This document shows positions 22,951 through 27,470 of a stretch of 64,000 bases of DNA, one piece after another. A model generated the notes under the pieces. That model was not told where the DNA came from and ran no database searches. It saw nothing but the letters and a program-made list of their open reading frames with translations. Within the stretch, counting starts at the first letter, position 1, and each line of letters opens with the position of its first letter. Origin of the DNA: Akkermansia muciniphila (GTDB lineage: Bacteria > Verrucomicrobiota > Verrucomicrobiia > Limisphaerales > SIAT01); the NCBI GenBank assembly GCA_945900775.1, contig CAMDJP010000001.1, positions 17,822 through 81,821 on the forward strand, given 5' to 3'. The position numbers and the translations under genes were made by a program.

Positions 22951-24249
22951 ATGAATGTCCTCCGCCACACCGATACAGGTTTCACCAGCAAGCTCGAGCG
23001 ATTGATGCGCGCCTCCAGCCTGTTTGATCCGGAGATTGAGCAACGCGTCCGTGGCATTCTTGAAGACGTGCGCGCCCGCGGTGACGTCGCGCTCCTCGAA
23101 TTCGCTGAGCGATTTGATGCCGTTAAGCTAACGACAGAACAATTGACAGTATCTCGCGCCGAACTCTTCAACGCCGCCCTTGCCGTCGAGGACCCACTGC
23201 GCGCCGCTATGACCCTTGCGGAGAAGAACATCACCGCGTTCGCGCGCGGTTCATTGCGCAAAAACTGGTCCCGTCGGAACGCACAGGGCGGGAAGGTTGG
23301 TGAAAAATTTGACCCTTTTCAGCGCGTCGGAATCTACGTTCCCGGTGGAAAGGCACCACTTGCCTCTACCGCGTTGATGACCATCACCCTCGCGCGCGCA
23401 GCCGGCTGCCATGAAATCATCGTCTGCACTCCATGCGGCAAGGATGGGAATGTGAATCCAGCGCTGCTGCACGCTGCACGCATGGCTGGCGCGACAGAAA
23501 TCTACAAGGTTGGCGGTGCGCAGGCCATCGCTGCGATGGCGCTTGGCACGGCAACCATCCGGCGTGTTCAGAAAATATTCGGTCCTGGAAACGCCTACGT
23601 GGTCGCGGCCAAACGCCTCCTCTTTGGCCAAGTCGCAATGGACTTGCTACCCGGGCCGAGTGAAGTGCTTGTGATTGCCGACGACACGGCTAACGCACGG
23701 TTCGCGGCCGCTGACCTGCTCGCACAGGCTGAGCACGGCTCCGGACACGAACGAGTTTGGCTTGTCACGCCTTCGCTGAAAATGCTCCGCGCTGTCGAGA
23801 GAGAGATCGCGAAACAGCTCTCGAAGCGATCGCGTCGTGAATTCATCGGCAAAGTACTTGCCGAAAACGGTTGGCTCATCCACGTAAAGTCCGTGGATCA
23901 GGGAATCGACATCACTAACCGCCTCGCTCCAGAGCATTGCGAGGTGATGACCCGCCGCGCTCGGCAGATCTCGGAACGGATTGTCACAGCTGGGGCTATC
24001 TTTCTCGGTAACAATTCTCCCACGGTACTCGGAGACTACGTGGCCGGACCAAGCCACACCCTGCCTACCGGTGGTGCGGGCGCTTCATTCGCCGGTCTTA
24101 CGGTGGATCAGTTCCAACGCCGCACGAGTGTGGTCGAATACAGTGCCGCGGCGCTTAAAAAATCACTCGCGGCAGTTGAGCAGTTTGCCGCAATCGAAGG
24201 TTTGGAGGCTCACGGTCAATCCGCCGCAATCCGCCTGGAGGGTAAATGA
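22951..24249 (+). CDS. hisD: histidinol dehydrogenase
   Basis: QRVGIYVPGGKAPLASTALM, GPGNAYVVAAKRLLFGQVAMDLLPGPSEVLVIAD, APEHCEVMT. Confidence 0.97.
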   Translation: MNVLRHTDTGFTSKLERLMRASSLFDPEIEQRVRGILEDVRARGDVALLEFAERFDAVKLTTEQLTVSRAELFNAALAVEDPLRAAMTLAEKNITAFARGSLRKNWSRRNAQGGKVGEKFDPFQRVGIYVPGGKAPLASTALMTITLARAAGCHEIIVCTPCGKDGNVNPALLHAARMAGATEIYKVGGAQAIAAMALGTATIRRVQKIFGPGNAYVVAAKRLLFGQVAMDLLPGPSEVLVIADDTANARFAAADLLAQAEHGSGHERVWLVTPSLKMLRAVEREIAKQLSKRSRREFIGKVLAENGWLIHVKSVDQGIDITNRLAPEHCEVMTRRARQISERIVTAGAIFLGNNSPTVLGDYVAGPSHTLPTGGAGASFAGLTVDQFQRRTSVVEYSAAALKKSLAAVEQFAAIEGLEAHGQSAAIRLEGK

Positions 24250-25337
24250 AACTGGTGCGCCCACTCCTCACGCAGCTTCATGCCTATATGCCGGGTGAGC
24301 AGCCAAAAATGAAGGGGCTGATCAAACTCAATACTAACGAGAATCCATATCCTCCATCCCCAAAAGTATTGCGTACAGTGAAGGCGGCTGTGGACGGGCG
24401 CCTAAGGCTTTATCCGAATCCAACCGCTCACGAGTTGCGCAAAAAACTCGCCAAGCTCCATCACTGTGCGACGGAGAATATTATCATCGGAAATGGCTCG
24501 GATGAACTGCTGGCTTTAGCGACGAGAGCTTTTGTCGAACCGAAGGCAGCCAGCACTGCCGAGTTTTCGCGCTCGACCGTCCAGTACTTCACGCCAAGCT
24601 ATTCACTCTACCCCGTACTCGCGGAGATTCACGGTTCGCGGCAAAACGCCGTGCCGCTGCGAGCGGATTTCAGTTTGCCTTCGCCGCGCGAGCTGAAGCG
24701 AGACCGGCAATGGGATTTCAAGGCGGCACTATCGTTTATCACGACGCCAAACGCCCCAACGGGCCGTGGCTACTCGGCTGCCGAATTGCGCGCGCTCTGC
24801 AAGGCTCAGCAGGGCGTTGTAATCCTAGATGAGGCTTACGTTGATTTTGCCCAGGAAGATGCCCAGCGGCTCGCGCTCGAGTTCCCGCATGTCCTTGTCT
24901 CTCGCACGTTCAGCAAGGCCTACTCGCTCTGTTTCCAGCGCATTGGCTATTTCATCGGCCATCCTCTGCTCATTGCGGCGTTGGACAAGGTTCGTGACAG
25001 CTACAACGTGAATGGGCTCGGGCAGATTGCCGCATTAGCGACGCTCAGTGATTTGCCGTATTATCTTAGGAATTTTCGCCGCATCATCGCCACGCGGGAG
25101 CAATTGCGCCGTGAACTAACCGGGCTGGGCTTTGCAGTGTTGCCGAGCCAGGCGAATTTTCTGTTCACAAAGCCACCCTGTTTTCCAGCAGGAGAATGGC
25201 TTAAGAAATTGCGTAGTCGAAAGGTTCTTGTGCGCTGGTTCAACTCCGATACCGGGCGTGATTACCTCCGCATCACTATCGGTTCCGAGCGCGAAGCGGC
25301 CATGCTGTTGCGCGCCGTGCGTTCTATCCTCAAATAA
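24246..25337 (+). CDS. hisC: histidinol-phosphate aminotransferase
   Basis: IKLNTNENPYPPSPKV, TPNAPTGRGYS, LDEAYVDFA, RTFSKAYSLCFQRIGY; ATGA overlap with hisD. Confidence 0.95.
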   Translation: MKLVRPLLTQLHAYMPGEQPKMKGLIKLNTNENPYPPSPKVLRTVKAAVDGRLRLYPNPTAHELRKKLAKLHHCATENIIIGNGSDELLALATRAFVEPKAASTAEFSRSTVQYFTPSYSLYPVLAEIHGSRQNAVPLRADFSLPSPRELKRDRQWDFKAALSFITTPNAPTGRGYSAAELRALCKAQQGVVILDEAYVDFAQEDAQRLALEFPHVLVSRTFSKAYSLCFQRIGYFIGHPLLIAALDKVRDSYNVNGLGQIAALATLSDLPYYLRNFRRIIATREQLRRELTGLGFAVLPSQANFLFTKPPCFPAGEWLKKLRSRKVLVRWFNSDTGRDYLRITIGSEREAAMLLRAVRSILK

Positions 25338-25338
25338 A

Positions 25339-26967
25339 ATGCCAGCCAGCCTCCCCTCCTGCGTTATTCATGAGGACGAGCATCTGCTCGTGGTGAACAA
25401 GCCGGCTGGATGGAATACTCACGCCCCTAGTTCGTATGCTGGAGAAGGCATCTATGATTGGCTGCGCCATCGCGAACCGCGTTGGGCCGCCCTTGCCATT
25501 ATCCAGCGTCTGGATAAGGAGACGAGCGGCGTGATGGTTTTCGCTAAAACTCCCGCGGCGAACCAATCCCTCACCGAGCAGTTTACCAATCGTGAAGTCC
25601 GGAAGAAATACCTGCTCCTCACCGATTGCAACGTCGCGCAGGACCAATTTACGGTGAAATCGAGCATCGCCCGTCTCGGCGACCGCTACGCGAGCAACCC
25701 TAATGGCGAACCTGCAGAGACGCGTTTCCGAGTGCTTGAACGACAGAATGGCCGAACACTCGTCGAGGCTGAGCCGTTGACTGGTCGGACACATCAGATC
25801 CGTGTCCACGCGAGCGAGAGCGGCTTTTCCATTCTCGGAGACACGCTCTACGGAGGAACGTCGGCGACGCGAACGTGCCTTCATTCCGCGGAGCTAGCAT
25901 TCGCGCACCCTGCCGATCATAAATCCGTGAGTTTCACTGTGCCCACGGATTTTGACGCCGATGCCCGCTTGCTGCTGCGAGCTGCTGCGATTGATTCCGA
26001 GCAAACCGATGCATTTCGCATCATCCACGGAGCTTCGGATGGCTGGCCTGGCTGGTACGTGGAACGACTCGGGGACTTTGGCTTGTCACAAAGCGAACAG
26101 CTCCTGAGCGACCGTCAACGCATCTTGCTCGCTCAACTTTGCGAAATGCCTTCGCCTAAAGCCACCCATCCGCAGGGCGCCACCCCTGTCTTACGCGGTG
26201 TCTATCACAAAACCCTTACGCGACGGCTCCTGAAAACAGCAGTCAGCGAAGCTTCACCGCAATTGCTGCTCGGGGAATCTTCCCTAGAACGTTTTGGAAT
26301 TCGCGAGAACGGCTTTCAATTCGAGCTTAGTTTTGCCGAGGGCTACTCGATGGGTCTATTCCTCGACCAGCGCGACAACCGCCGCCGGTTTATCACCAAC
26401 CACCTGGCAGCAGGGTTTCCGCTGTTTCCCGATGGGATTGCAGCTAAAGAGGTCCTGAACACGTTCGCCTACACGTGCGGTTTTTCAGTTTGCGCAGCCT
26501 CTGCAGGCGCGCGCGTGACAAGCCTTGATCTCTCGCGGAAATATTTGGATTGGGGACGCCGCAACTTCGTACTGAACGGGCTAGACCCATCGGGGCACGA
26601 CTTCATCTACGGCGACGTGTTCGATTGGCTGCGGCGGTTTGCAAAAAAGGGCAGGGGCTTTGACGCCATCGCACTCGATCCCCCCACATTTTCACAATCA
26701 AAGGAAAGTGGCGTGTTCCGTGCTGAGAAAGATTATGGCCGGTTGGTGGACGCAGCATTGAAGCTTCTTCGACCTTCTGGCGTGCTGTTCGCCTCGACCA
26801 ACGCCGCAACCATGCGCCCTGAGGATTTCGTCGGGACGGTGACCGCAGCGGTGCGAACTTCAGGTCGGCGAGTGCTGCAACAGCACTACGCTCCGCAGCC
26901 GCCAGATTTTCCAATCAGCCGCGAAGAGCCTGCATATTTGAAAACGCTCTGGATGCGGGTTTCCTAA
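25339..26967 (+). CDS. fused RluA-family pseudouridine synthase and RlmI/RlmK-type class I SAM methyltransferase
   Basis: N-terminal EDEHLLVVNKPAGWNTHAP, IQRLDKETSGVMVFAKT, GRTHQIRVHA; then RlmI-like linker FRIIHGASDGWPGWYVERLGD; C-terminal SMGLFLDQRDNRRRF, AYTCGFSVCAASAGARVTSLDLSRKYLDWGRRNFVLNGL, DPPTFSQSK; single uninterrupted ORF. Confidence 0.9.
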   Translation: MPASLPSCVIHEDEHLLVVNKPAGWNTHAPSSYAGEGIYDWLRHREPRWAALAIIQRLDKETSGVMVFAKTPAANQSLTEQFTNREVRKKYLLLTDCNVAQDQFTVKSSIARLGDRYASNPNGEPAETRFRVLERQNGRTLVEAEPLTGRTHQIRVHASESGFSILGDTLYGGTSATRTCLHSAELAFAHPADHKSVSFTVPTDFDADARLLLRAAAIDSEQTDAFRIIHGASDGWPGWYVERLGDFGLSQSEQLLSDRQRILLAQLCEMPSPKATHPQGATPVLRGVYHKTLTRRLLKTAVSEASPQLLLGESSLERFGIRENGFQFELSFAEGYSMGLFLDQRDNRRRFITNHLAAGFPLFPDGIAAKEVLNTFAYTCGFSVCAASAGARVTSLDLSRKYLDWGRRNFVLNGLDPSGHDFIYGDVFDWLRRFAKKGRGFDAIALDPPTFSQSKESGVFRAEKDYGRLVDAALKLLRPSGVLFASTNAATMRPEDFVGTVTAAVRTSGRRVLQQHYAPQPPDFPISREEPAYLKTLWMRVS

Positions 26968-26999: not shown

Positions 27000-27470
27000 T
27001 CAGTGCGGTTTACGAAAACGCTCCCGTTCACGGCGATTGAACGTCTCAACGTCAGCCTTCATCTCGCCGAGAGATTGGGCGAGCACGCGGATGAATTGGC
27101 CGCAACTCTGAGCCATTCCGCCAAGCCCGATGACGGTGTCGCGTTCAGCAAAATCATCGGTAATGACGAGCACTTCTCCGTAGGGCTTCATCCGATGCGC
27201 TGTGCGCTCGATCATGTCGTCGGCGGTCTGTCCAGCCTTCGAATAGAGCACCTCGACTGCAGAAGTTGAAATCGGTTTGGGTGCGCCAGTGGGAGCATTC
27301 GCTCCATCGAAAAAGATGCTGAGGGGCGTTCCCGAGGCGTCGTGATACTGGGTGAGGATCGCGATTAACTCGTCTCGCGCGGCGGCGGAGAACCGAGGTT
27401 TCCCCTCGGCTAGTTCCGGCCACGCGTGCAGCAGGCTGTAGCCATCCACAAGAATGCGAACGAGCGCCAT
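27000..27470 (-). CDS. NYN domain (YacP-like) putative ribonuclease
   Basis: VRILVDGYSLLHAWPEL, SIFFDGANAPTG, LVITDDFAERDTVIGLGG. Confidence 0.85.
   Translation of the reverse strand: MALVRILVDGYSLLHAWPELAEGKPRFSAAARDELIAILTQYHDASGTPLSIFFDGANAPTGAPKPISTSAVEVLYSKAGQTADDMIERTAHRMKPYGEVLVITDDFAERDTVIGLGGMAQSCGQFIRVLAQSLGEMKADVETFNRRERERFRKPH

Follow-up and report, generated by a model that had tools for sequence, protein, structure and literature searches.

A conserved gene fusing an RluA-type pseudouridine synthase to a COG1092-type methyltransferase: a probable two-in-one RNA-modification enzyme

Introduction

The stretch of DNA analysed here, a window of 64,000 nucleotides, carries a gene in which an RluA-type pseudouridine synthase is joined to a COG1092-type methyltransferase, two enzymes usually found as individual proteins. 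Most members of a verrucomicrobial order retain this fusion, as does part of a second phylum, which we take to be Myxococcota. Its product is a conserved and uncharacterised two-in-one RNA-modification enzyme that is probably bifunctional. We consider it fairly probable, judging from conserved residues and domain content, that the protein is a 23S rRNA enzyme composed of an N-terminal pseudouridine (Psi) synthase and a C-terminal methyltransferase, the latter most probably forming m7G, with the two modules anchoring one another. To our knowledge, fused rRNA-modifying enzymes are rare, with RlmKL as the textbook case, and a literature search of incomplete coverage found no paper on a fusion of pseudouridylation with base methylation. 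We likewise know of hardly any mapping of the rRNA modifications of either phylum; in these little-mapped lineages, the fusion is a candidate enzyme for two marks. Lineages that have lost the RluA half permit direct comparison with fusion carriers. Should the two marks prove to be neighbours, the fusion would offer a naturally occurring test case for rRNA modification that is coupled and ordered as the ribosome assembles.

Gene Structure and Domain Content

Translation of positions 25339-26967 on the forward strand is free of stops and gives a single ORF of 542 amino acids, in which an RluA-type domain is followed by an RlmI/RlmK-type methyltransferase, as the preliminary description of this DNA had proposed. 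The two Pfam families that it had suggested searching for are both matched, PF00849 at residues 15-159 (E 1.6e-30; 106.8 bits, cut-off 26.8) and PF10672 at residues 303-500 (E 7.4e-26, far over the cut-off), and the motifs that it had listed (VVNKPAGW, QRLDKETSG, GRTHQIRVHA and DPPTFSQSK) are all found in the ORF. The features of the gene are as follows.

25339..26967, + strand: fused RluA-type pseudouridine synthase / COG1092-type methyltransferase gene, 542 aa, ATG start, TAA stop
25360..25953, + strand: RluA-type catalytic domain, about aa 8-205, without S4 domain (PF00849; structure matches to RluC, RluA and RluD)
25504..25515, + strand: QRLD motif, aa 56-59, with the predicted catalytic Asp, D59
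25609..25611, + strand: conserved active-site Tyr, Y91
25801..25803, + strand: conserved Arg, R155, in the GRTHQIR motif
25996..26964, + strand: PUA-less methyltransferase half, about aa 220-542, an RlmI-like pre-domain followed by a Rossmann methyltransferase (profile matches)
26677..26703, + strand: methyltransferase motif IV, DPPTFSQSK, aa 447-455 (compare DPPTFSNSK of RlmK; unlike DPPKF of RlmI)
26794..26808, + strand: methyltransferase motif VI, STNAA, aa 486-490, with N488 aligned to the cysteine of the m5C enzymes

In a profile search of the window protein, no curated NCBIfam model spanned the whole fusion. The N-terminal half drew matches from RluA-family models and the C-terminal half from models of 23S rRNA methyltransferases, none of which reached its cut-off. 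The match to TIGR00005 (177.8 bits against a curated cut-off of 192.7) starts at model position 71, the S4 part being absent, and the synthase domain begins at about residue 8 of the protein with no S4 domain before it. RlmI-type models align to the methyltransferase half only from model positions 79-99, past their PUA part, and the fusion protein has no Pfam match to PUA_3, although this domain is present in two paralogues from the same genome, L002 and L003.

Catalytic Residues, Selection, and Predicted Structure

An alignment of 54 fusions shows no variation at D59, Y91 and R155 of the RluA half or at D447-P448-P449 and N488 of the methyltransferase half; the loss of catalytic residues in homologues, against which the preliminary description had cautioned, is not seen among these fusions. 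The active site of RluB is built from Asp, Tyr and Arg in the corresponding motifs (PMC3919597). These three residues and the catalytic fold are common to the fusion and to RluC, RluD and RluA; RluC and RluD carry an S4 domain, whereas the fusion is without one and has a methyltransferase added at its C-terminus. It had also been remarked that the usual HRLD motif reads QRLD in the window protein. This is correct, and it is the window protein's own variant among close relatives: 15 of the 16 verrucomicrobial fusions in the RluA tree have HRLD, many distant relatives have QRLD (second-phylum fusions mostly read HQRLD), and the Asp is retained in all of them. An RluA half inactivated through QRLD was ruled out, as both H- and Q-bearing relatives keep the Asp and the window protein keeps the Tyr and Arg; by sequence comparison, the change is a seemingly harmless variant.

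Both halves are under purifying selection of similar strength. Against the nearest relative, the RluA half has a dN/dS of 0.10 and the methyltransferase half one of 0.09, with synonymous change near saturation; in eight further pairs it ranges from 0.14 to 0.51 and from 0.13 to 0.30, respectively, and it lies below 1 for each half in nine of nine pairs tested. The AlphaFold model of the protein (mean pLDDT 93, pTM 0.90) has a synthase half whose fold matches RluA (rmsd 1.6 Å), RluC and RluD, and a methyltransferase half whose fold matches 3vse, SMU.776 and RlmI. The two halves therefore look active on the evidence of their residues, and the earlier suggestion of a bifunctional rRNA modifier stands as likely, given that the fusion is conserved and that neither half has lost its catalytic residues.

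The Predicted Methyl Mark and the Relation to RlmK

C5-cytosine methylation requires a cysteine nucleophile. RlmI and RlmO, which make m5C1962 and m5C1942, share their superfamily and the pre-domain with the fusion, but they have a PUA domain and a motif-VI cysteine and the fusion has neither. The cysteine (SCS or CCS) occurs in every RlmI/RlmO-type relative compared, including L002 and L003, whereas every fusion has Asn in its column. The window genome encodes two COG1092 proteins besides the fusion, namely L002 and L003, each with PUA and cysteine, which leaves the fusion as the one protein of the three that lacks the cysteine. Motif VI is also cysteine-free in RlmK (SNN) and in 3vse and SMU.776 (CTNAS/STNAA), and these proteins group with the fusions in two methyltransferase trees (support 100/98 and 100/96). 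RlmK and RlmQ are known to methylate guanine at N7. Since Asn replaces the cysteine in all fusions, m5C is disfavoured as the methyl product, and this, together with the grouping with cysteine-free RlmK and 3vse/SMU.776, favours m7G. Of the two products that the preliminary description had left open, m5C thus recedes and m7G is the probable one; the missing cysteine speaks against canonical m5C chemistry without proving m7G.

RlmQ (YwbD of B. subtilis, also in S. aureus) makes m7G2574. The fusion resembles it through 3vse and SMU.776, the probable structural relatives of RlmQ, which have a COG1092-type fold and a cysteine-free motif VI and are the nearest solved folds. We infer that 3vse is RlmQ; a literature search on 3vse found nothing. 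Unlike the fusion, 3vse keeps the PUA region, as its alignment to RlmI runs from residue 6 on, and it is without an RluA domain. Other Verrucomicrobiota possess solo PUA-less methyltransferases of about 300-350 aa with the same motifs, orthologous or nearly so to the methyltransferase half, and these differ from the fusion in having no RluA domain.

E. coli RlmKL (YcbY), which makes m7G2069 and m2G2445, likewise carries two 23S rRNA modifiers on one chain, with an RlmL methyltransferase as the partner where the fusion has a pseudouridine synthase. This raises the alternative that the fusion is simply the verrucomicrobial RlmK, making m7G2069, with an RluA domain where RlmKL has its RlmL domain. 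The two are alike in their PUA-less Rossmann domain, their lack of the cysteine, the DPPTFS motif (DPPTFSQSK in the fusion) and the D.SR.YL.W region; RlmK is nearer to the fusions than 3vse is in the larger tree (96/91); and the window genome, whose assembly is 91% complete, yielded neither an RlmL-type protein over the cut-off in a PF01170 search nor another RlmK candidate. Nevertheless, RlmK and three second-phylum paralogues form a separate clade (100/100) with the fusions outside it, and genomes G202-G204 of the second phylum encode both an RlmK-type protein (two of these were scanned with NF008748, scoring 356 and 393 bits) and a fusion, which makes the two paralogues there. Because a separate RlmK-type protein coexists with the fusion in these three genomes, the fusion is not RlmK itself, and we regard the alternative as unlikely. 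The likeness of DPPTFSQSK to the RlmK half, noted previously, accordingly holds for the motif and not for identity: the methyltransferase half is a paralogue of RlmK, not an orthologue.

Proposed Mutual Anchoring and Loss of the RluA Half

In the bifunctional 23S rRNA enzyme that we favour, the RluA-type module would convert uridine to pseudouridine using Asp59, Tyr91 and Arg155, the PUA-less C-terminal module would carry out SAM-dependent base methylation, most probably at guanine N7, and each module would probably help to anchor the other on early 23S rRNA or a 50S precursor. Mutual anchoring is proposed because neither module has the RNA-binding appendage usual in its relatives, S4 in RluC and RluD and PUA in RlmI. 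The activity of both modules, the rRNA substrate, the m7G product and the anchoring are what we infer for this protein. Solo PUA-less methyltransferases do occur with no RluA partner nearby (the retrieved flanks of related loci held no RluA gene next to them), so that the RluA half appears unneeded as an anchor for the methyltransferase.

It might instead be supposed that only one half is active and the other serves as an RNA-binding platform, for example an RluA domain that positions the methyltransferase. The losses seen within the verrucomicrobial order lend this some weight. In the methyltransferase tree, the solo proteins L131, L132, L133, L083 and L088 and the degraded L080 fall among the order's fusions; L080 (2800-4209) is an intact methyltransferase with an eroded RluA remnant from which the RLD motif is gone, apparently an intermediate in loss of the RluA half. 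The nested solo proteins together with the L080 remnant indicate that the RluA half was lost at least once, and the nesting of L131, L083 and L088 makes it dispensable in some lineages. Against an idle half speak the fusions' invariant Asp, Tyr and Arg at the RluA active site, their equally invariant methyltransferase DPP and Asn motifs, and the similar purifying selection across the two halves, and we hold this alternative to be distinctly improbable.

The fused RluA domains of the order form one clade (100/99) in the RluA tree. The methyltransferase tree rejects the fusions as one strict clade that leaves out the solo proteins (AU p 0.008); one origin with the order's nested solo proteins counted in was not rejected (p-AU 0.106), nor was a single clade of all fused RluA domains (p-AU 0.32). 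A single origin with later losses, transfer between the phyla, and two origins are all possible histories of the fusion.

The Predicted Pseudouridine Mark and RNA Substrate

Among named enzymes, RluC comes closest to the window's RluA half, with 123 bits where RluD scores 96 and RluA 87.5; PDB scores agree, and in one RluA tree E. coli RluC stands beside the verrucomicrobial fusions (90/84), a grouping that is absent from the smaller tree. E. coli RluA acts on both tRNA and rRNA. Such tRNA enzymes within the RluA family (RluA, TruC) leave room for tRNA or some other RNA as substrate in place of 23S rRNA, and in the second-phylum fusions the RluA and TruC models do score at or above RluD and RluC (in L169, RluC scores below RluA, TruC and RluD). 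For the methyltransferase half, however, the closest equivalogs in NCBIfam are 23S rRNA enzymes, and every characterised COG1092-type methyltransferase that we know of acts on 23S rRNA; a substrate other than 23S rRNA is in our estimation very improbable.

Where on 23S rRNA a bifunctional enzyme would act is a matter for speculation. The sites of RluC are 955, 2504 and 2580; that of RlmQ is m7G2574 (from the title of Wolff et al., 2024, a reference in both PMC12672651 and PMC12805891), and G2574 lies in H90 (PMC12149560). As position 2580 is six nucleotides from G2574, Psi2580 and m7G2574 form an attractive pairing, and one may speculate that the two marks are such neighbours in the peptidyl-transferase region. 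The fuller version, in which a Psi and m7G enzyme places two neighbouring marks of this region in a single binding event, each module serving as the other's RNA-binding domain, is a tentative idea that we rate as rather doubtful.

Distribution of the Fusion

The survey of fusion distribution that the preliminary description had called for was made by scanning GTDB species genomes, scoring only the best-ranked candidates per genome, which makes absences in large genomes less certain than presences. Among 80 related loci, 70 have both domains in a single ORF, and in the remaining 10 the methyltransferase stands by itself or carries a degraded RluA portion. Within the window's order, the fusion is one ORF in 47 of the 58 sampled genomes; the two parts lie at contig ends, apparently split there, in four, a solo methyltransferase is present in four, and three are without a close match. 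When 145 genomes spread across the class and phylum were sampled, the full fusion was found only in the window genome among the matches listed, and the best other matches were solo methyltransferases, most of them about 300-340 aa long. Of 113 second-phylum genomes, 17 have fused relatives; these too are single ORFs, and the majority are 510-670 codons long. Dozens of independent assemblies, drawn from two phyla, show the same single-ORF layout, which excludes an assembly or sequencing artefact joining two neighbouring genes, including the frameshift or missed stop that had been raised as a concern, and leaves it a negligible probability.

Genomic Neighbourhood and Other Proteins

Two genes precede the fusion.

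24246..25337, + strand: hisC-like aminotransferase gene directly upstream of the fusion; a single base separates the hisC-like stop from the ATG of the fusion
22951-24249: hisD-like gene preceding the hisC-like gene

The hisC-like, hisD-like and fusion genes probably share an operon. As a conserved arrangement, an operon with his genes holds partially: a minority of related loci have hisC upstream of the fusion, and hisC is also found beside the solo gene L132. Convergent to the fusion gene is a gene with an NYN_YacP domain (YacP/Rae1-like ribonuclease family; window 27000-27470, - strand), and such a gene is near the fusion in more than 10 related loci.

Among the other proteins of the window genome, L002 (1363-2892), which has PUA and cysteine, scores 646 bits against a cut-off of 650 with the model for the enzyme that makes m5C2499 in 23S rRNA, a mark that has been reported from Deinococcus. 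The RluA-family paralogue L010 (1255-2106) has HRAD and no Tyr at the usual place (SQVQLAL), and may be degenerate or of altered function. In genome G192, a TrhO-type tRNA uridine hydroxylase (UPF0176_N plus rhodanese) is fused to an RluA-type synthase in L183 (238-2127), as confirmed by Pfam, and L195 of genome G125, which groups with L183 in the RluA tree, is a fusion of the same kind.
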